Shown here: one piece after another, positions 26,957 to 35,486 of the stretch | Layout: every line of letters begins with the position of its first letter | Numbering within the stretch: the stretch's first letter is position 1 | IMG/VR virus record: IMGVR_UViG_3300036851_000490 | Coordinates: 1 to 36,105 of that record | Length of the DNA stretch: 36,105 nucleotides | Reading direction: 5' to 3' (one strand) | Source of the DNA: a virus | Notes under the pieces: model-generated | What the model was told of the DNA's origin: nothing | Database searches by the model: none | The model's input: only the letters and a program-made list of their open reading frames with translations | Made by a program: the position numbers and the translations under genes

Positions 26957-28797
26957 CAGACTCCTACCGGGGCCTGCTCTTGCGGCGTCTGCCTCTGAGC
27001 AGAGCGCAGGCTGAACAGAAGTTGTGAGAGTCCTTGAGCCGAGGGGGCCTCAGGTGCAGCAGTGGTAGGCACCTGAGCGCCCTGACCCTCGGCTGTGATG
27101 CCAGGCATGGATTCGGGGGAGCCGGGGAGGGCAGTATCGGGTGCTCCCTCTGCCGTGATCTCTGCCTGGCGTTCTTGAGCCTCCAGTTGAACTTGAGCTA
27201 TCGCGTCCGCTAAATCCATCTTGTCCTGCTTTACCAATTGCTTAATGCGAGCCAGATCTGTAATTGGAATGGGGCTGTCGGGATTAGCCGCTTGGGACTG
27301 GAGACCAGCCAGGACTGCATCATCTATCGCCTCGGCCTGCATACGATCCTTCTCCCGCTCCACGTCGTCGATCAGGGGGTTTAGCTCCATCGCCCGCTGC
27401 TTAGACATGGTTCCGGTACCAACGGCCTGGCCGGTCAGGATCATCAGCCCATTCTGATCGGAGCCGGGCATGGAATAGACCACCTGATGCTCGTCGGTCT
27501 CGAAGTGTACGTTCGGGGTGTAGGTGACAGCTCCCTTAGCGCCTTTCCATGACACCCAGAAGTTTCTCGGGATGTTCCCGAACCACCCTTTTGCAGTGGC
27601 GATAGCTCTGATGTTCTCGGCCTGAAGCGACCGGGCGAACATCCTCTGAGCCGCAGCGATGGGGAAGTCGATCACGTTTGCCAGAACCGATTCGCCCCGG
27701 CGTCCGGTACGTATGTTCGACGCGCTCTCCCCCCCGAACTCGGCAGGAATCCCGCCAGCCAATCTCTGTGCCCTCTCCAGGCGGTCGATGGTGGTGTTGG
27801 TCATGAAACCTGGCTGGACGGGGAAGTCCCTCAGATCACCGCCCTTGATCTGGCCGATAGTCCCGTCCTTCGGATTAGCCACCACCGTCACATTCGCGGT
27901 CTCGTTGGGCCGTGAGATCGCCCACATGCTGGGAAGGACTCCCCGCTCCACCGCAATGATCTCCAAGGCGGTGAGACGCGCCTGGGCCTCGAACATTCCC
28001 ACCATGTCGTCGAACTGGCCCTTGCGCGCATCCAGCGTGACCCGCCCGGCCACGACTGCAGGACAGATCCCCGCCCGGTTGGGAATCCTGAATAACGGCT
28101 CTATCTCGCTGCCCCGAAACTCCCAGTCATACCCGTCGTCGGTGCGCTGAGCCTTCCCGAGAATGAAAGTTGAGAGCTCAAAGGCATCGACGTACTGCAG
28201 GCACTCGTACTTGTCGTCCGGTTCGGGATTGTCCCCTCTGGCCAATCTTGCAATAGCATCTGGATATCTGCTCTCCAGATACGCCAGGGTCTTCGAGTAG
28301 CAGAAGATGCAGTCGGGCACCTCCACGTCGTCGGGGTCAATGGTAGGCGCCGGGTAAGTCATAAGCGGATTGCGCGGCTCCCAGCGAGGAATCCCCCGGT
28401 CGAAATCCGGCATCACAAGAGCGGGGGAGTGGGCATAGGCGATCAAGTGCCGGCCCCGGCGGGCCATCTTCACGTCCAGGGCGTTCATCTCCCACCATCC
28501 GAGGTTCGCCCGCCGGCGAATGCTGGCGTACTCGTCGGCCTTCTTCTGCCCGGGCTTCTGGGAGGGGTAGACGATGTCCGGCAGGAGCGAGGCGATCCTC
28601 TCGGCGTTCTGGTCGATGCCCTGAATCATCAGGTTCGCTATCGCCGGGCGCTTCGAGACGTCGTCTATCTCCGGAAGCGGAAGGGTGATATCGACGAAGT
28701 TGTAGTAATCCCGGATCTCCCGCATCTTGCCCATGACAGGCCCGGCGGCCTTTTTGCGGGCCAGATACAGATTCAGGATCTCGCGAGAATCTCTCAT
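26956..28797 (-). CDS. portal protein
   Basis: A 613-residue protein from ATG 28797, which overlaps the terminase stop as ATGA and has GAGG five bases upstream. An alternative ATG at 28824 adds nine residues but sits with no spacing behind its purine run. Portal identity rests on its place right after the large terminase, its size, and conserved-looking segments (GIDQNAERIASLLPDIVYPS, and LERAQRLAGGIPAEFGG near the middle, the region of the portal stem and wing). It forms the ring at the capsid vertex through which DNA is packed. The Pro/Gln-rich last 90 residues look flexible. Confidence 0.75.
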   Translation of the reverse strand: MRDSREILNLYLARKKAAGPVMGKMREIRDYYNFVDITLPLPEIDDVSKRPAIANLMIQGIDQNAERIASLLPDIVYPSQKPGQKKADEYASIRRRANLGWWEMNALDVKMARRGRHLIAYAHSPALVMPDFDRGIPRWEPRNPLMTYPAPTIDPDDVEVPDCIFCYSKTLAYLESRYPDAIARLARGDNPEPDDKYECLQYVDAFELSTFILGKAQRTDDGYDWEFRGSEIEPLFRIPNRAGICPAVVAGRVTLDARKGQFDDMVGMFEAQARLTALEIIAVERGVLPSMWAISRPNETANVTVVANPKDGTIGQIKGGDLRDFPVQPGFMTNTTIDRLERAQRLAGGIPAEFGGESASNIRTGRRGESVLANVIDFPIAAAQRMFARSLQAENIRAIATAKGWFGNIPRNFWVSWKGAKGAVTYTPNVHFETDEHQVVYSMPGSDQNGLMILTGQAVGTGTMSKQRAMELNPLIDDVEREKDRMQAEAIDDAVLAGLQSQAANPDSPIPITDLARIKQLVKQDKMDLADAIAQVQLEAQERQAEITAEGAPDTALPGSPESMPGITAEGQGAQVPTTAAPEAPSAQGLSQLLFSLRSAQRQTPQEQAPVGV

Positions 28798-30650
28798 GCG
28801 GTCCTCAGCCAGCTTGGCCTCCATTCCCTGACTGGCTTTACGTCGATTGAGTCACGCATCTCCATCCAGTTCTTCCAGCAAAACCAGCAGCTCATCACAA
28901 GATCTTGTTCAAGCAGGTTCCCGGAGATGTTGGGGCGCCAGTTCAGCAGCTCTTCGATCAGAGGGTTCATCCGGCTGCGGGTCAGCTCGTCTGAGAAGGG
29001 GATCCGGAACTCACCTCTCTGGAAAGAGCCGGCCATCGACGCGACGCCCAGCACCTCGTCGGCCTTGTTTCTAGAAGAGGTGTGGGGGATGAGCTCGAAG
29101 CCGTACAGGTTGGAAAGCCTTCTCAGTCTCTCGTCGTAGGCCAGACCCTTTTGAAAGGCATCCCGCTCCACCACCAGGCGACGGGGCTGATATCGAATGG
29201 CAAACTCTTCCACCCGGTTGAGGATGTCCTCCGTGCGGGCGAGGTGAAAGACCTTCTCGCAATCCAGCAGGTGCAGGCGATCAATCGTGAAGGCGAAGGC
29301 AGATAAAGCATTTCCGCCGCCTAGAGCCGGGTCCAGGCCCATGACCACGAAGTCCCCGAACTCCAACCGTCCTACGGAGCGGTCGTAGTCCTTGCACTCG
29401 TCGATGTACTCGCCGGTGAAGGTCGCCAGTTCATCGGAGTGAGGGGCCTGCATGTAGGCGCAGGCCCAGGTCTGCTTGCCCGACTGACGCTTTCTCTCGG
29501 CTAGGTCCACGGGCCCCCACATCTCGGGACAGAGAGGCTGACCCTCCAGGCCCGGAAGGGTCTTGCCTCGAAGCTCTATCGGCTCGATGGGCTCCGTTCC
29601 CGGCCGGCAGGCGGCTAGGACGATGTACTCGTGGGGGATGTCCTCCTCCATCAGGCGCTCGTAGATATCCCCCACCCCAACCCGGGTGCCGATGATCACC
29701 GTTCGACCCGCCTTTCCGACCCTGGTTAGCAGGGTGTGGCGAATGACCGTGAGCATGCTGGCAGTTGAAGCGAGGGACTCCGGCTGCTGGATATCGTCGA
29801 TGATCAACGTGTCCCACCGGGAGCCGTAAACCTTGGAAGTCCACCCTGCGGCAGCTACGGAGGGATCGCGCTCGTCATGCTCCGATTTCCATACCGAGAA
29901 GTGGGTGGCCGTCCAGGGCTTGCCCTGCCGCTCCTGGCCCTCCTGGTAGAAAGGGCCGAACCTCGCCGTGAAGTCCGTTGCAATCGAAGGATGCATCCGC
30001 TCCTGGCAGCGATGGATGATCTTCTTCGCATGCTCCCCGGATTGGGAGACCACTCCGAAACGATGATTAGGGTCTTTCGCCAGGGTGTAGCAGATGAAGT
30101 CCTCGATGGTGGTTGTCTTCCCATGGTCAGGAGGCAGAAGGCAGAGGGTGACGTGCTGGGGATGGGTCTTCTCGAGAGCGTGGACCAATCTCAGTTGATG
30201 CTCGTAGGTCTCGAACCCGAAGTACTTATGCCGGAAGTTGGCAAACCCTCCCAGATAGTCGTCCGCCAGGCGCGTTCCTTTAGCCTTAGCCCGGATGGCA
30301 TCACACTCAGCAGCAAAGTTCGGCACCTCGCGGCGCCACCCCTTGTAGGTGCCCGGCGTGCGATTGATCGCTAGGAGGGCTTCAGGAAGGGTATCGCCCT
30401 GTCTCAGGCGCTCCTTGAACCTTTCCCTGACCGGATCTGCGGGCCGCTTGCGGGGAGGGTGGAAGTTGGGGTTGAGCTCCCGCCACCGCTCCGCTCCTAC
30501 TCTGAGCTTGCACCCCTTGCACCAGTCGTGATAGGTGCCATTGGCCCTACGGTGGAAGCTGCGTACATCTTTTGTCTTCCCGCAGCGCGTACAGATCCGG
30601 GTCTCCTCCGGTCGCAGGAAGACCGGATCGCGGGCTTTCTGAATCGCCAC
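28794..30650 (-). CDS. terL: terminase large subunit with N-terminal zinc-finger and HTH
   Basis: A 618-residue packaging motor. The ATPase has a Walker A-like PPDHGKTT at 173-180, Walker B LIIDD at 282-286, and a GTRVG coupling-type motif at 321-325. The RNase H-like nuclease shows D440 (GLDPALGG), E495 (VVERD) and D531 (NKADE). Ahead of it lie a zinc finger (C20, C23, C44, C47) and, at about 73-125, a helix-turn-helix of small-terminase type (EALLAINRTPGTYKGWRRE, then NFAAECDAI). No separate small subunit is seen nearby, so this may be a fused small and large terminase. It overlaps the portal gene as ATGA. Confidence 0.9.
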   Translation of the reverse strand: MAIQKARDPVFLRPEETRICTRCGKTKDVRSFHRRANGTYHDWCKGCKLRVGAERWRELNPNFHPPRKRPADPVRERFKERLRQGDTLPEALLAINRTPGTYKGWRREVPNFAAECDAIRAKAKGTRLADDYLGGFANFRHKYFGFETYEHQLRLVHALEKTHPQHVTLCLLPPDHGKTTTIEDFICYTLAKDPNHRFGVVSQSGEHAKKIIHRCQERMHPSIATDFTARFGPFYQEGQERQGKPWTATHFSVWKSEHDERDPSVAAAGWTSKVYGSRWDTLIIDDIQQPESLASTASMLTVIRHTLLTRVGKAGRTVIIGTRVGVGDIYERLMEEDIPHEYIVLAACRPGTEPIEPIELRGKTLPGLEGQPLCPEMWGPVDLAERKRQSGKQTWACAYMQAPHSDELATFTGEYIDECKDYDRSVGRLEFGDFVVMGLDPALGGGNALSAFAFTIDRLHLLDCEKVFHLARTEDILNRVEEFAIRYQPRRLVVERDAFQKGLAYDERLRRLSNLYGFELIPHTSSRNKADEVLGVASMAGSFQRGEFRIPFSDELTRSRMNPLIEELLNWRPNISGNLLEQDLVMSCWFCWKNWMEMRDSIDVKPVREWRPSWLRTA

Positions 30651-31325
30651 CTAGCGCGTGTAGGAAATCTTCATCCCAGCGGGGTAAGTGACTCCGCCGA
30701 TGGTCACAGTTCCCTGGGTACCCACGGTGCCCTTTGTGCCGGAGATTGCAGTCGTTCCGGAGGTTCCCTGGATACCCGAGCCACCGGACAGCCCCGTCGC
30801 CCCTTTGGTGGAGGTGCCCGAAATTCCCGTCCCCGCCTTACCGGAAATGCCCGTCCCTGCCTTTCCTGCCGTCCCCGTTCCGTAGCTTGCCCCTTTCTTC
30901 CCGGGCACGCCCTGGATGTAGCGGGGGATGGAGGCCTGGGACACCGCCGGCAGACGCCGAGCAGAAGCTATCTGCCTCGATGTGGCGTAGGTGTTGCGGG
31001 TCATCGAGGAAAGGGCATTGCCCGAATAACGGGGTGCTCCCCAGCCGGTCCGTCGGGTAGGACCTTGCGCAGTTGGGGTAGGCCAGTCGGCTGCACCGCC
31101 TTCCTCACTGTAGAGCTGAGAGGTTCCGGGCATGGCGTAATGGCGAGCCTCGGCCACGCTTGTGGCCTTGCGTTGCATGATCATCCCGGCTGCCCCGCCC
31201 TCAGGCCCCGGAGGTGCGTCATAGTAACGCGGCTGCCTCGGAAACAGGCCGTACTGGCCGGTGGAAGCGTTGAAGTAAAGATCGCTGCCCGGCAACTTTT
31301 TGTACCCACTTGGGACGTAGCTCAT
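30651..31325 (-). CDS. Gly/Thr/Ser-rich repetitive protein upstream of terminase
   Basis: A 224-residue protein. The N-terminal 130 residues are aromatic and polar (SGYKKLPGSDLYFNASTGQYG). Residues about 145-205 are a collagen-like low-complexity run with units such as GKAGTGISG (twice), GTSGT and GTKGTVGTQGT. A short VTIGGVTYPAGMKI end looks like a beta hairpin. ATG with AGAAGGGGAAG upstream. This composition suggests a fibrous virion or surface protein, but the position directly before the terminase is unusual for a fibre. No family recognised. Confidence 0.55.
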   Translation of the reverse strand: MSYVPSGYKKLPGSDLYFNASTGQYGLFPRQPRYYDAPPGPEGGAAGMIMQRKATSVAEARHYAMPGTSQLYSEEGGAADWPTPTAQGPTRRTGWGAPRYSGNALSSMTRNTYATSRQIASARRLPAVSQASIPRYIQGVPGKKGASYGTGTAGKAGTGISGKAGTGISGTSTKGATGLSGGSGIQGTSGTTAISGTKGTVGTQGTVTIGGVTYPAGMKISYTR

Positions 31326-31373
31326 TTCAACTTCCCCTTCTCTTGAACAGATGGTTCAGGTAGGATCATCTCG

Positions 31374-31568
31374 ATGAGGATTGGCTGGGTCGTTGTATTC
31401 ATACTGACCCTGGTTCTATTCGCGATCCTGTTAAGTTCTCCAGTGAATCAGATCACCCAGACTCCCCAGTCTCACCCAGACTCAGCACGGACTCTGGAAT
31501 GCGTGGTCGTTGGAGGAGACGGAGGCGGCCACGAACAGCCCACAGAGACGGGTAGCCCTTGTCTCTAA
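31374..31568 (+). CDS. small membrane-anchored or secreted protein on the opposite strand
   Basis: A 64-residue protein on the plus strand inside a minus-strand block. ATG 31374 has AGGA eight bases before it. Residues 4-21 are a strong hydrophobic segment (GWVVVFILTLVLFAILL), followed by a polar, Thr/Gly-rich tail with two cysteines (C43, C63). It may be a membrane-anchored or exported moron-type gene acting on the host envelope, for example in superinfection exclusion. That role is a guess. It fills the only gap between two minus-strand genes. Confidence 0.55.
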   Translation: MRIGWVVVFILTLVLFAILLSSPVNQITQTPQSHPDSARTLECVVVGGDGGGHEQPTETGSPCL

Positions 31569-31578
31569 ACACGCGACG

Positions 31579-31863
31579 CTAGCGCTTCGGCTTCTTCTCC
31601 GCAGCTTTGGCCTTGGCCTTCTCCGCTATAGCCCTCCCCGGTGCCACGCCGGTTCTCGAAGCAGCCAGCTCGGACTTTCCGGGAGTTGCTCCACCGACTC
31701 TTGAAGCAGCTGAGGCCGAGCGGCCAGGGGAGGAACCAAGTGAAGACTTCTTCTTGGCCTTAGCGTTAGAGATCTTCGCCGCCCGTTCTTTGGACATTCC
31801 CTTCTCCCGCAGTGCCTCATAGACTTTCGGCCGGCGGATAGAGGCATACTTCTTACCAGGCAT
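31579..31863 (-). CDS. basic protein with conserved N-terminal 'SI..PKVYEALR' motif
   Basis: A 94-residue, very basic protein. Residues 1-35 (KKYASIRRPKVYEALREKGMS, then AAKISNA) match a small domain common in actinophages, which I believe is the DUF7218 group. The tail is a histone H1-like run of Lys, Ala, Ser and Gly (AEKAKAKAAEKKPKR). The tail suggests DNA binding. ATG 31863 lies directly after the upstream stop. Function not established. Confidence 0.65.
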   Translation of the reverse strand: MPGKKYASIRRPKVYEALREKGMSKERAAKISNAKAKKKSSLGSSPGRSASAASRVGGATPGKSELAASRTGVAPGRAIAEKAKAKAAEKKPKR

Positions 31864-32076
31864 TTACTTCCTCCCTAGATCTGGATACTTGCGATGGACC
31901 GCGGCTCTTACTCGAGCCTTCTCGGATGGAGAGCCGTGCTGAGCCACCCGAGCCAAAGCATTGCGGGCATGAACCTTGTCATGGATGGGATAGGAACCTG
32001 ACCCCGGCGCCTTACCTGGAATGGCAAACTGCTTCTTGGGCAATCTCTTGCGTGCCTTGGTAGTTAGTTCAGCCAC
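31864..32076 (-). CDS. small phage protein with 'FAIPG...YPIHDKVHARNALARV' motif
   Basis: A 70-residue basic protein. The motif KQFAIPGKAP, then YPIHDKVHARNALARVAQHG and VHRKYPDLG, recalls a small family found both alone and fused to phage prohead proteins (I think DUF6582). The GTG start abuts the upstream stop and is preceded by AGGAGGAGG, a very strong ribosome binding site, so it should be well expressed. Function unknown. Confidence 0.7.
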   Translation of the reverse strand: MAELTTKARKRLPKKQFAIPGKAPGSGSYPIHDKVHARNALARVAQHGSPSEKARVRAAVHRKYPDLGRK

Positions 32077-32235
32077 TCAATCCTCCTCCTGTACCTGATC
32101 AGCCGTGGAATTGGCGTAGAGCTCCATGTACACCATCTCCGGCTCCTGGCCGTTCTGGACCCGTTGCAAAGCAAGCAGAAGTTCCCAGCCGTTGATCGTC
32201 CACCAGCAGTCGTAAAAGCTCTTTTCTTCAGACAA
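32077..32235 (-). CDS. hypothetical small acidic protein
   Basis: A 52-residue protein found in the gap, from TTG 32235 to TGA 32077 (MSEEKSFYDCWWTINGWELLLALQ). A TAG two codons upstream rules out a longer form. It overlaps the small membrane protein by eight bases and abuts the next GTG, the packing usual in this genome. The acidic end (ADQVQEED) encodes the strong ribosome binding site of the following gene. No family. Confidence 0.5.
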   Translation of the reverse strand: MSEEKSFYDCWWTINGWELLLALQRVQNGQEPEMVYMELYANSTADQVQEED

Positions 32236-32365
32236 CGAAAGCTAGAGCGAGGAAGAACAACCCGAACGAGATAGTGTCAATCGGTCCGAGCCCCAAACCG
32301 AGAGCAGCGAGCAGAAACAAGACCGCGGCGATGATGGCGCAGATCTTGGAAGGGGTGATGGTCAA
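32228..32365 (-). CDS. small two-segment membrane protein
   Basis: A 45-residue protein found in the gap, from TTG 32365 (MTITPSKICAIIAAVLFLLAAL) to TGA 32228. Nearly the whole length is hydrophobic: a segment at about 8-26 and another at 32-45, separated by GPID. AAAGGA lies eight bases before the TTG. Small proteins of this form (TP.KI.AI.A...LL.....G...I...LG..FLAL) recur in actinophages, without known function. Confidence 0.6.
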   Translation of the reverse strand: MTITPSKICAIIAAVLFLLAALGLGLGPIDTISFGLFFLALAFVV

Positions 32366-32398
32366 CAGATCATCCTTTCTGGGGAATAGGATTAAGGA

Positions 32399-32578
32399 AT
32401 GAAGCTTGACCGTAGGTGGCGAGTTACCATCGGCCCAGATTGCGCGATGTGCGGACAGTCACTACCAAAGGAACACCTGGAACAATTGAGGGGCAGCCGT
32501 CTTCCTACTGAGATGATCTGGCCCGCGAGCCTTTGTAAAAGGTGCCGTGAACTTGAGCGTCAGGCAGTCAACCGCTGA
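32399..32578 (+). CDS. small zinc-finger-like protein on the opposite strand
   Basis: A 59-residue plus-strand protein found in the gap. ATG 32399 has AGGA seven bases upstream, and TGA ends at 32578. Two CxxC pairs (C15/C18 and C46/C49) suggest a zinc ribbon, and the protein is basic (MKLDRRWRVTIG... RCRELERQAVNR). It fits the space with no minus-strand gene and overlaps the regulator gene tail-to-tail by 19 bases. It starts 33 bases from a divergent minus-strand gene, leaving little room for promoters. It may be a small regulator. Confidence 0.5.
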   Translation: MKLDRRWRVTIGPDCAMCGQSLPKEHLEQLRGSRLPTEMIWPASLCKRCRELERQAVNR

Positions 32579-32961
32579 TTGCAGCGAGTGCACCGATCCT
32601 TCGTCGGATGCTTCACCCCACCGCACGAACAACGAATGAGTCCGTAGTCGGCAGGGAGCTTGCCGGGAGGAGGGAGACGGGGAAGGATCGGGTCCGGTTC
32701 AGAAAACCTCTGTTTCTGAGGAGCAATGGCCTCAGTTGGATTGGAATTCTTATGGAGCCAGTCCGTTAGAAGCGTACGTACAAGCTCTGAAATGGTCTGC
32801 GTACGTACGTCATCCGAGGTCTGTTTTTGGAGTGTTGTACGTACGGTTTCGAGAAGCTCAGAATCGATTCTCAGTTCAAATCTGCCCACTGATCTCCTTG
32901 AAAATGGGGTGGAAAACTCTGAGAGAAATGTGGGGGGCAAGACATTCCCTTCCACGCTCAC
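32560..32961 (-). CDS. ribbon-helix-helix-like regulator with C-terminal zinc ribbon
   Basis: A 133-residue protein. Residues 27-69 (RFELRIDSELLETVRTTLQ, then ISELVRTLLTDWL) have the pattern of a ribbon-helix-helix DNA-binding domain: a beta strand that inserts into the major groove and two helices. A Pro/Gln-rich linker leads to a zinc ribbon at C111, C113, C124 and C127. It is probably a transcription regulator. GTG start after a GGGTGGGG run. The upstream gap is AT-rich and non-coding. Three identical GTACGTAC palindromes lie inside the gene and may be its own binding sites (see finding). Confidence 0.6.
   Translation of the reverse strand: MSVEGNVLPPTFLSEFSTPFSRRSVGRFELRIDSELLETVRTTLQKQTSDDVRTQTISELVRTLLTDWLHKNSNPTEAIAPQKQRFSEPDPILPRLPPPGKLPADYGLIRCSCGGVKHPTKDRCTRCNQRLTA
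32774..32844. promoter_or_regulatory. three GTACGTAC palindromes inside the regulator gene
   Basis: Perfect 8-bp palindromes at 32774-32781, 32801-32808 and 32837-32844, spaced 27 and 36 bases start to start. Each encodes Val-Arg-Thr in the host gene, with the same GTA CGT AC codons every time, while other valines there use GTG or GTC. The identical choice suggests selection at the DNA level, for instance as operator or silencer sites. Confidence 0.4.
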
Positions 32962-33133
32962 CCCACCCTCGGCACATCCCCGGTCAAACAGTAATCAGTG
33001 AGAGATTTCTTCCATTTCCCTGCTGAGTTCCTGAGTTCTCAGGTGCATAAAGCCCTCTGCACTACCAGGTACCTGCATACCTATGTCTTAAGAGACCAAC
33101 TCAGGCACATTAGAGGCTTTCATAATTGATCTT

Positions 33134-33146
33134 ATGGAAGTTCCAT
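33134..33146. promoter_or_regulatory. perfect inverted repeat, operator candidate
   Basis: ATGGAA G TTCCAT, two 6-bp arms around a single base, in a non-coding region about 170 bases upstream of the ribbon-helix-helix gene. The size and symmetry suit a dimeric repressor site. No protein can be assigned. Confidence 0.35.
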
Positions 33147-33200
33147 GGTTCTAGGCGTGAATCTCACTATCAAATGGATAGATGGTACTGATTTAGTACT

Positions 33201-33226
33201 GGTTTACTCGGGGTAAACCTTTTTTT
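33201..33226 (+). terminator. rho-independent terminator reading on the plus strand
   Basis: A perfect 7-bp stem GGTTTAC / GTAAACC with loop TCGGG, followed by seven T. The T run is only on the plus strand, while the genes on both sides are on the minus strand. It must therefore stop a plus-strand transcript, perhaps one from the 32399-32578 gene crossing the regulator gene in antisense, or a short RNA from within the gap. Confidence 0.75.
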
Positions 33227-33311
33227 CTCTCCCGACCAATCACACATTACTCAGCCCAGGACTCAGCAACATCTCACCTGACATTCAAAACTGGAGTGAT
33301 TGCTTGTTAAC

Positions 33312-33503
33312 TCAGGCCCAGCGAGAGCGATAGAGACGTTCCCGAGCTGAGATCAGGAGATGTTCTGGTCTGTCTATGCCGTGACGATAGAAGAACTTGG
33401 AACACGTATCACAGCGGCCGAGGCGCCTTGCTGGAGATAATCCACACACTCGACAGACAGAGCGTCCGCGCCGGACAGTAATCAAAGTCCCCACGTTTGT
33501 CAA
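33312..33503 (-). CDS. small zinc-finger-like protein
   Basis: A 63-residue basic protein with CRVC at about 17-20 and CDTC at about 31-34 (CRVCGLSPARRLGRCDTC), followed by KFFYRHGIDRPEHLL. Short proteins of the form C..CG......G.C..C...RHG are frequent in actinophages and are probably zinc-binding, perhaps nucleic-acid-binding. TTG start with AGGA and GGAAA upstream. Last gene before the AT-rich gap. Confidence 0.6.
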   Translation of the reverse strand: MTNVGTLITVRRGRSVCRVCGLSPARRLGRCDTCSKFFYRHGIDRPEHLLISARERLYRSRWA

Positions 33504-33515
33504 GTATTTCCAGTC

Positions 33516-33974
33516 CTAGCCATACCCCTCTCCCCGTTCCTGTCTGCGCTGCTGGTAAGCCAGCTGGCGGTTGTGGTCCCTCCTCAGATATCCAGGAAGG
33601 GCCGGCGCCATATCGTCCGCCTCGTATCTCGACTCCTGGCTGTCTGTAGGCGTCCAGGTGCCTACCGCCTGCTCCATGAGGTGAATTGCTTTGTCCAGCC
33701 TCACATCAATGTTCTCGAGGATCCTGAACGCCTTGCGAGCCAGATCCCGCCTCTCATCTAAACCTGCCTGTTCGGTGGGTTTGTTGAGCTCCCCTCCGGT
33801 GATCCGCTGCCGGCTGCCTTGGGAGTTCAAATACAGGCCTGGGTAGGCCCATCGATAAGCCTCGCAGAAGACGGAGTACTTCTCTCTCCACCGCTTCGGC
33901 AAGCCGTTGTGGCGAGCTTCCATCCTTGAAGGGAGAAAGAGCCTTGTCTGCCTCTGGGGAAGTCGCTCTGTCAA
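33516..33974 (-). CDS. hypothetical protein
   Basis: A 152-residue charged protein, helical in its second half (LDERRDLARKAFRILENID, then LDKAIHLMEQAVG). The N-terminal third is Arg-rich and aromatic (RWREKYSVFCEAYRWAYPGL). The TTG start overlaps the upstream stop as TTGA. No family recognised. Position among small regulatory and nuclease genes suggests an early or accessory role. Confidence 0.55.
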   Translation of the reverse strand: MTERLPQRQTRLFLPSRMEARHNGLPKRWREKYSVFCEAYRWAYPGLYLNSQGSRQRITGGELNKPTEQAGLDERRDLARKAFRILENIDVRLDKAIHLMEQAVGTWTPTDSQESRYEADDMAPALPGYLRRDHNRQLAYQQRRQERGEGYG

Positions 33975-34165
33975 CTTGTCCCCTTGTCTACTTGCTTTTG
34001 CTGCTGATTAGCTTTTCGCAAAAGCTCCTCGCCTTCAGCAAGCGCTAGCTGCCGTCCTTCCGCTTCGGGGTACGGCTTAGGCCAGCCTCGGCGCGCAGAC
34101 CGCTCATTCCGCTCCCGCATCTTCTCCAAGCCTGCGCCATAAGGCCATTCCTGAAAATCACACAT
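33971..34165 (-). CDS. hypothetical small protein
   Basis: A 64-residue, strongly charged protein (GLEKMRERNERSARRGWPKPYPEAE, then a Gln/Lys-rich end). The ATG lies inside the last codons of the small membrane protein upstream. Joined to the next gene by a TTGA overlap. No motif recognised. Confidence 0.5.
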   Translation of the reverse strand: MCDFQEWPYGAGLEKMRERNERSARRGWPKPYPEAEGRQLALAEGEELLRKANQQQKQVDKGTS

Positions 34166-34325
34166 CAGGATTCCTCAAATATTTTCGCACTTCAGGGTGG
34201 CGATGAACGTACCAACGCTCCCACGTTCTTACGATCTGGTCATGAACCACAAACCCAGCTATCACGAGACTGAAAATGCTCAGCCAAAGCAATATCCAAG
34301 CTAGTGCTTCTACCCAAGGGCTCAC
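34158..34325 (-). CDS. small single-pass membrane protein
   Basis: A 55-residue protein found in the gap, from GTG 34325 (MSPWVEALAWILLWLSIFSLV) to TGA 34158. One transmembrane segment at about 6-27 is followed by a basic, aromatic tail (IVRTWERWYVHRHPEVRKYL) that should stay cytoplasmic. GGAAAGG lies seven bases before the GTG. It begins 14 bases after the WhiB-like gene and overlaps the next gene by eight bases. Function unknown; small anchored proteins next to regulators can act in superinfection exclusion, but this is only a suggestion. Confidence 0.6.
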   Translation of the reverse strand: MSPWVEALAWILLWLSIFSLVIAGFVVHDQIVRTWERWYVHRHPEVRKYLRNPDV

Positions 34326-34339
34326 TCAGCCACCTTTCC

Positions 34340-34651
34340 TCACGCCACCCTCTCCAGCACCTTCACGACCTTGGGATTCCCAGAGGTTCCCGAGCGGTAG
34401 AAATACGCCCCTCCCCAGATTCCCTCGCTCTTCGTCACTGCTCCATGATGACGGCAGCGGGCTAGAACTGGGCAGTGGGCGCAGAACTCCTCCACCGTCG
34501 TCACCAGCCGGGGATTTCGTCGGAGCTCTGGATATCTGTCGGTGGATTTCACGTCGGGGAAGAAGAGCCTGTCGGCAAGAGATGAGGGAAGACCCCTGCA
34601 TAGGGCTTGATCCATCCAGTCGGGGTAGTCGAGTTGAAGGAAGGGCCTCAC
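34340..34651 (-). CDS. WhiB-like iron-sulfur transcription regulator
   Basis: A 103-residue protein with all WhiB hallmarks: four cysteines (C18, C57, C60, C66; the last three as C-x2-C-x5-C) that bind a [4Fe-4S] cluster, and the turn GIWGG at 77-81. A Lys/Val-rich C-terminal end may contact DNA. WhiB proteins occur only in Actinobacteria and their phages. In mycobacteriophage TM4 the phage copy interferes with host WhiB2, cell division and superinfection. GTG start, overlapping the upstream TAG by one base. It probably reprograms host transcription through the primary sigma factor. Confidence 0.88.
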   Translation of the reverse strand: MRPFLQLDYPDWMDQALCRGLPSSLADRLFFPDVKSTDRYPELRRNPRLVTTVEEFCAHCPVLARCRHHGAVTKSEGIWGGAYFYRSGTSGNPKVVKVLERVA

Positions 34652-34875
34652 TACTGCTCCCGCCTTCTTGCAGCATCCAAAAGCGGTCCTATATGGAAGT
34701 GCTCCTGTTCCAGTTTGAGAGCGAGCGCTACCTTCTCACCCAACTCAATCTGCTCTTGCTCGGTACGGAATAGGTAGAAAGCCCTATTACCAGCGCCCTC
34801 CTTCCAAAAAGCACCAGGTAATGGCCCCCAACTGCCACCAAAGTGCAGGTTCCAGACCTTCGAGTACCGACCCAT
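34651..34875 (-). CDS. hypothetical protein
   Basis: A 74-residue protein. Residues 1-40 look beta-rich with many Gly and aromatic residues (KVWNLHFGGSWGPLPGAFW). Residues 40-74 are helical (EQEQIELGEKVALALKLEQ). The ATG directly follows the preceding TAA. The alpha/beta layout does not match a family I know. It is translated just ahead of the WhiB-like protein. Confidence 0.55.
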   Translation of the reverse strand: MGRYSKVWNLHFGGSWGPLPGAFWKEGAGNRAFYLFRTEQEQIELGEKVALALKLEQEHFHIGPLLDAARRREQ

Positions 34876-35097
34876 TTACCTTTCCTGGCCTTCGGACACA
34901 AGGCAAGTGGCACACGTTTCAATGACCGGCTGCGGCGCGACATCCTTTGGAATCCAGATTTTGTACTTCAGGCACCCGTCACAAATGACTTGGGTATGCG
35001 TCTTCGACATTCGCCGAGCCCAGTCCTGCCAAGCCATATAACCTTCCGGTGCTGGCGTGTGTTGATCCGCTCTTGAACAATTCTCTGAATCCTTCAT
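34876..35097 (-). CDS. small zinc-ribbon-like protein
   Basis: A 73-residue protein from ATG 35097, which overlaps the nuclease stop as TGATG. A TTG two codons upstream (35103) is an alternative. Two CxxC pairs (ICDGCLKYKIWIP and CATCL) about 24 residues apart suggest a zinc ribbon. Three further features are a Trp-rich N-terminal helix (MAWQDWARRM), a polar linker and a Glu/Arg end. Possibly nucleic-acid-binding; function unknown. Confidence 0.6.
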   Translation of the reverse strand: MKDSENCSRADQHTPAPEGYMAWQDWARRMSKTHTQVICDGCLKYKIWIPKDVAPQPVIETCATCLVSEGQER

Positions 35098-35486
35098 CAG
35101 CAAGGCACCCCCTCAACCTCGTCGAACATCTCCACCGGGGCATTCCTCAGCGCCGATTCCACCCGTCCGCTGGACCAATCGGCTGGCCGGAAGATGTAGG
35201 TCTCAACGCCGGGGCATTTCCGCAGAGCTTCGAGCCACTCTTCCTGCTCCATGGAGGTCCGGCCTTTGGCGGATTTCAGTTCAACGAAGAGAACCCTGCC
35301 TTGGCCTTTGGCATCCACCTTCACTAGGACCAAATCTGGGAAGCCAGGATCTCCTTGGATGTGAGTAGCAAAACTCCCGTCCGCGCGTCTGGCTGGACGG
35401 TCGTGGTGGCAGAGGAAACCGAGATAGCCTGCCAACGAAACAATGGCGTCTTGCAAACTACGCTCTGAGACTGAGATGAGAGTCAT
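35097..35486 (-). CDS. VRR-NUC-type nuclease
   Basis: A 129-residue PD-(D/E)xK nuclease. Motifs: GFPDLVLV with D51, VELKSAKG with E69 and K71, and SMEQEEWL with Q81, in the order and spacing of stand-alone phage VRR-NUC proteins. These often act as structure-specific or Holliday-junction nucleases in phage recombination and DNA clean-up. ATG start overlapping the methyltransferase stop as ATGA. It is followed by the zinc-ribbon gene. Confidence 0.8.
   Translation of the reverse strand: MTLISVSERSLQDAIVSLAGYLGFLCHHDRPARRADGSFATHIQGDPGFPDLVLVKVDAKGQGRVLFVELKSAKGRTSMEQEEWLEALRKCPGVETYIFRPADWSSGRVESALRNAPVEMFDEVEGVPC

Follow-up and report, generated by a model that had tools for sequence, protein, structure and literature searches.

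Does a short plus-strand frame lying opposite a regulator gene in this virus record represent a hidden zinc-finger gene, and does it form an antisense switch with the regulator, as a sequence-only reading had proposed? The window, that is the whole stretch of DNA analysed, comprises the complete IMG/VR virus record of 36,105 bases, whose minus strand carries the structural genes. The frame is located upstream of the terminase gene, among small minus-strand genes that include one for a WhiB-like protein. Between the capsid protein and its counterpart in Streptomyces phage Kumquat, which belongs to Manuelvirus, identity amounts to 49% in the alignment and 47% by tblastn, the terminase is 27-29% identical to its relatives, and both the regulator and the small gene are absent from these terminase and capsid relatives.

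A 59-codon frame in the gap beside the regulator

The features that define the gap and its borders are as follows:

32399..32578 (+): frame of 59 aa with two CxxC pairs, probably the gene of a small zinc-binding protein (ATG, upstream AGGA, phrog_4923 match at E 0.0016, gap fit)
32385..32388 (+): AGGA that probably serves the 59-aa frame as ribosome binding site (position counted by eye, maybe one base off)
32228..32365 (-): 45-aa hydrophobic-protein gene bordering the gap, its start 33 nt from the ATG of the plus-strand frame
32560..32961 (-): regulator gene, 133 aa, with a probable ribbon-helix-helix domain and a C-terminal zinc knuckle

The frame opens with an ATG at 32399 and closes with a TGA at 32576-32578 (59 codons plus stop), encoding CxxC pairs at residues 15-18 and 46-49. 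It is preceded by a sequence ending in GGGGAATAGGATTAAGGAATG, which holds an AGGA at a 7-nt spacer and a second AGGA abutting the ATG. It fills the 194-nt gap between the regulator gene and the 45-aa hydrophobic-protein gene and overlaps the former tail-to-tail by 19 nt (32560-32578). The length, ribosome binding site, cysteine pairs and overlap that had been claimed for this frame were thus all verified. Gene callers miss short genes in gaps opposite their neighbours; the 59-codon frame is a fair candidate. We envisage a small zinc-binding gene that would sit in the gap, with a minus-strand gene on either side; where it runs into the end of the regulator gene, the overlap would be an ordinary convergent one.

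To gauge chance, we generated random gaps of 194 nt from a second-order Markov model built on the local DNA. An ATG frame of at least 50 codons arose in 9% of such gaps per strand, one that also holds two CxxC pairs in 0.017%, and one with a ribosome binding site in addition in about 0.001%. In random 36-kb windows, however, the number of double-CxxC frames between 40 and 80 aa long averages about 0.6, so that the cysteines by themselves were ruled out as proof of a gene, and the case for the 59-codon frame rests on its gap position together with start codon and ribosome binding site. Two CxxC pairs occur in 5 of the 303 window frames of at least 40 aa, the other four (the terminase among them) being on the coding strand.

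Comparison with the PHROGs profiles matched the 59-aa protein to phrog_4923, a family of small phage proteins of unknown function, at E 0.0016 (8.8e-5 within the window). The match is weak, and what the two have in common is the segment spanning both CxxC pairs (protein residues 15-49 on profile positions 8-41 of 49). Among 40 shuffles of the protein in which the cysteines were kept fixed, the best E value was 0.0062, to a different family, and none of 88 other viral records gave a phrog_4923 match (E up to 0.1 or 0.01). In the structure model of the protein (pLDDT 60), a low-confidence helix at residues 47-57 starts at the second CxxC. Treble-clef zinc proteins have their second CxxC at a helix start. 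A structure search with the model returned weak hits (all with Z of at most 2.6), including PHD, FYVE, TraR and ClpX entries. Rfam gave no match.

The frame could instead be open by chance, in a gap that codes for nothing, leaving the terminator and the regulator with the sites inside its gene as the only functional elements, a reading that we place somewhat below even odds. It draws on the 0.6 double-CxxC frames expected per random window, on the codon usage of the frame, which falls inside the distribution of non-coding frames and below 99.7% of structural-gene windows, and on the search for homologues, of which none was found in IMG/VR, in GTDB genomes or in 44 kin-phage records, nor was any relative found that holds the frame. 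Since neighbours that are probably real (the regulator, a 63-aa CxxC gene and WhiB) score low on codon usage too, this test is weak in this module. Set against a chance origin are the joint improbability of gap fit, ATG, ribosome binding site and double CxxC, and a phrog_4923 match that beats all 40 shuffles and is unique among the 89 viral records, the window included. We therefore lean towards a real gene. It would probably be an ordinary phage gene for a zinc-binding protein of the treble-clef type, both its translation and zinc binding by its product being inferred. Of the hidden zinc-finger gene proposed earlier, the gap fit, ATG, ribosome binding site and CxxC pairs speak for a likely real gene, whereas its non-coding codon usage and the lack of a close homologue do not. 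Five matches of the frame to T7-like phages (E 0.5) were rejected because the one that was examined lies antisense to an annotated gene.

Other frames in the surroundings were recorded as well. The large terminase (28794-30650, minus strand) has two CxxC pairs in an N-terminal segment that gave matches to endonuclease VII / HNH families (for phrog_1035, over residues 15-126, E 3e-5) and is missing in both aligned relatives. Two further small double-CxxC frames of this module lie on its coding strand, at 33312-33503 and 34876-35103 (both minus); short zinc-type proteins seem to be abundant in this phage. A second plus-strand frame, at 31374-31568, encodes 64 aa with a hydrophobic N-terminus and has an AGGA 8 nt before its start; it occupies the gap 31326-31578 between minus-strand genes and may be a further hidden gene.

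Three palindromes inside the regulator gene

The sequence-only reading had also pointed to palindromes within the regulator gene. These are real, and comprise three copies of GTACGTAC:

32774..32781 (no strand): in-gene palindrome GTACGTAC, Val-Arg-Thr in the regulator
32801..32808 (no strand): in-gene palindrome GTACGTAC, Val-Arg-Thr in the regulator
32837..32844 (no strand): in-gene palindrome GTACGTAC, Val-Arg-Thr in the regulator

All copies of GTACGTAC in the window lie within the regulator gene (three versus 0.15 expected), and no other 8-mer of the window recurs three times, as separate copies, within 100 nt. Kin-phage loci that had not been selected for the motif (1.8 Mb) contained three identical 8-nt palindromes within 100 nt otherwise solely as AT repeats. 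Each copy writes Val-Arg-Thr as GTA CGT AC, while GTA CGT is used for none of the 33 Val-Arg pairs in the structural genes. Of 225 papers that contain GTACGTAC, the 30 listed describe no phage in-gene element in title or abstract.

An IMG/VR scan for three spaced copies of GTACGTAC yielded 47 contigs, among them L218, which encodes a homologue of the regulator (39% identity over 108 aa, E 2e-17) and is hence motif-selected. Because L218 had first been found via the motif, we repeated the search by protein alignment with degenerate codons, and recovered L218 again and nothing else. All three palindromes recur in L218 at matching places of the protein, the middle one displaced by one codon, and the codons for Val-Arg-Thr are identical between window and L218 at 6 of 7 aligned identical residues, versus 11 of 31 elsewhere. 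L218 keeps the probable ribbon-helix-helix-zinc protein, with its gene directly upstream of a same-strand small terminase gene, whereas a CxxC frame opposite the tail of the regulator gene is absent from this sole detectable homologue. Since L218 retains the three sites without the CxxC frame, the palindromes, on this comparison, accompany the regulator, unlike the small zinc gene.

We consider the regulator to be probably a DNA-binding ribbon-helix-helix protein with a zinc knuckle. The zinc-knuckle residues are modelled at pLDDT 86-89, and the low-confidence N-terminal model has helices at 34-46 and 57-72 and no strand. No ribbon-helix-helix profile matched the window regulator significantly, and hhalign against the Arc-like repressor set gave a probability of 3.8%; the L218 homologue has weak scores to phrog_6506 (E 0.036, its best family) and to RHH_1 (E 0.11). 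By eye, an inverted repeat, ATGGAAGTTCCAT, is discernible at 33134-33146, in intergenic DNA upstream of the regulator gene, and is a possible further operator.

Arrays of the palindrome in other viral contigs

Of the 47 contigs, 22 have their triple GTACGTAC array just upstream of a gene that encodes a short protein (about 53-62 aa), at a distance of 16-25 nt and mostly 20 nt, and all 12 of the array-associated proteins scanned matched phrog_6506, an Arc-like repressor family (best E value 2e-10). These 22 contigs are motif-selected and represent one protein family. phrog_6506 was absent from 50 motif-unselected records, and a query with the Arc-like repressor drew no hits from either the phage or the plasmid collections. 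From their position about 20 nt upstream of phrog_6506 genes, the GGTGTACGTACACC triple arrays are predicted to be an operator for the Arc-like family. The 22 contigs with GGTGTACGTACACC triple arrays (in L198-L243, e.g. L200:2496-2744) are GC-rich and viral, and the spacing is mostly 23 and 34-35 nt.

Copies inside genes were detected in several other contigs. Another Arc-like repressor gene, in L215/L222 (L215:11127-11603), holds five in-gene copies of GTACGTAC, and in-gene arrays also occur in replication-initiation genes of L210/L223 (L210:3114-4181; phrog_16167, E 4.5e-18), in a gene of L205/L225 whose replication-initiation match is weak (L205:3905-4762), and in Phd-like and MazE-like genes (L233:2814-3125 and L237:6313-6573). 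Nearly all in-gene arrays of these unrelated DNA-binding-type genes are in the same frame and read Val-Arg-Thr. TGTACGTACA occurs in 8 papers, one of them on the AraR operator, and GTACGTAC is the core of the AraR operator consensus, AraR being an unrelated protein of the GntR family (PMC4218819). As this unrelated operator shares the core palindrome, the fold of the binder cannot be told from the motif by itself.

Proposed autoregulation and possible antisense transcription

The downstream terminator that had been claimed was confirmed as a plus-strand element:

33201..33226 (+): intrinsic terminator of plus-strand transcription, 8-bp hairpin plus T7, with a second hairpin before it

Its 8-bp hairpin (33201-33219) is perfect, its T7 is the sole run of at least six T or A in the 36-kb window, and the region folds better than its shuffles (z -2.4). 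Because a real plus-strand terminator is present, a plus-strand transcript through or near the regulator gene is likely; its start could be either before the small gene or solely within the 350-nt region upstream of the regulator.

As GTACGTAC arrays co-occur with Arc-like repressor genes in 22 contigs, we infer that the three sites are putative in-gene operators for autoregulation, binding and repression included. Taken as a whole, with a probability that we put at roughly 0.5, the locus would hold a small zinc-binding gene in the gap and, beside it, the gene of a repressor of the Arc-like ribbon-helix-helix kind, which would bind GTACGTAC and regulate its own expression. Here, as in L218, the operators would reside inside the repressor's own coding sequence and not upstream of it, such that the bound protein would block the elongating RNA polymerase, and the same sites could equally block plus-strand (antisense) transcripts ending at 33226.

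Other readings of the sites and of the transcript have to be weighed against autoregulation from within the gene. The arrays in replication-initiation, Phd-like and MazE-like genes allow that the in-gene GTACGTAC array serves another factor, for instance as origin iterons within the gene, and the position of the L218 regulator gene directly upstream of the small terminase gene also fits with this; we deem it unlikely, however, as the surroundings of the sites in the window showed no recognisable replication-initiator gene and as, in 22 contigs, Arc-like repressor genes have such arrays at their promoters. More doubtful again is the antisense switch proposed at the outset, in which plus-strand transcription through the small gene would cross the regulator gene up to the terminator at 33226, with mutual hindrance. 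The convergent 19-nt overlap, with no terminator between the two genes, the one strong plus-strand terminator past the regulator and the filling of the gap at 31374-31568 by another plus-strand frame with a good ribosome binding site are in its favour, but a search of 31300-34800 revealed no plus-strand promoter of the sigma-70 type, and the partner is missing opposite the regulator tail in L218. The check for the same arrangement in related phages, which had been suggested, was run on this one homologue of the regulator and left the switch unsupported. Most speculative of all is a combined scheme, in which an autoregulatory repressor with operators written as Val-Arg-Thr codons would also block the antisense plus-strand transcript of the small zinc gene, and in which unrelated DNA-binding genes (replication initiators, other Arc-like repressors, Phd-like and MazE-like genes) would have evolved the same device.

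The autoregulated repressor with in-gene operators is better supported than the antisense switch, and the regulator with its in-gene sites is the part worth following. The in-gene sites in a distant homologue and the 22 promoter arrays together provide a predicted binding site for an uncharacterised repressor family.

The locus can be set beside three kinds of known system. Phage lambda O carries the initiator-binding sites (iterons) inside the initiator gene. Lambda O and the L210/L223 arrays share with the window repeated binding-type sites in the gene of a DNA-binding protein, yet the window regulator has no similarity to replication initiators. Excludons and noncontiguous operons, cited in PMC8745188 and PMC7457138, resemble the window in that one gene faces its neighbours from the other strand and transcripts may overlap; a difference is that the arrangement seen here is not shared by the one homologue. 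The Arc-like ribbon-helix-helix phage repressors (phrog_6506, phrog_582; Pfam RHH_1) are short proteins with a strand-helix-helix pattern, and in the 22 contigs their genes, like that of the regulator, come with a single 8-bp palindrome in three copies. In the window, however, the sites are within the coding sequence rather than upstream, and the regulator has an extra C-terminal zinc knuckle and no ribbon-helix-helix score of its own.
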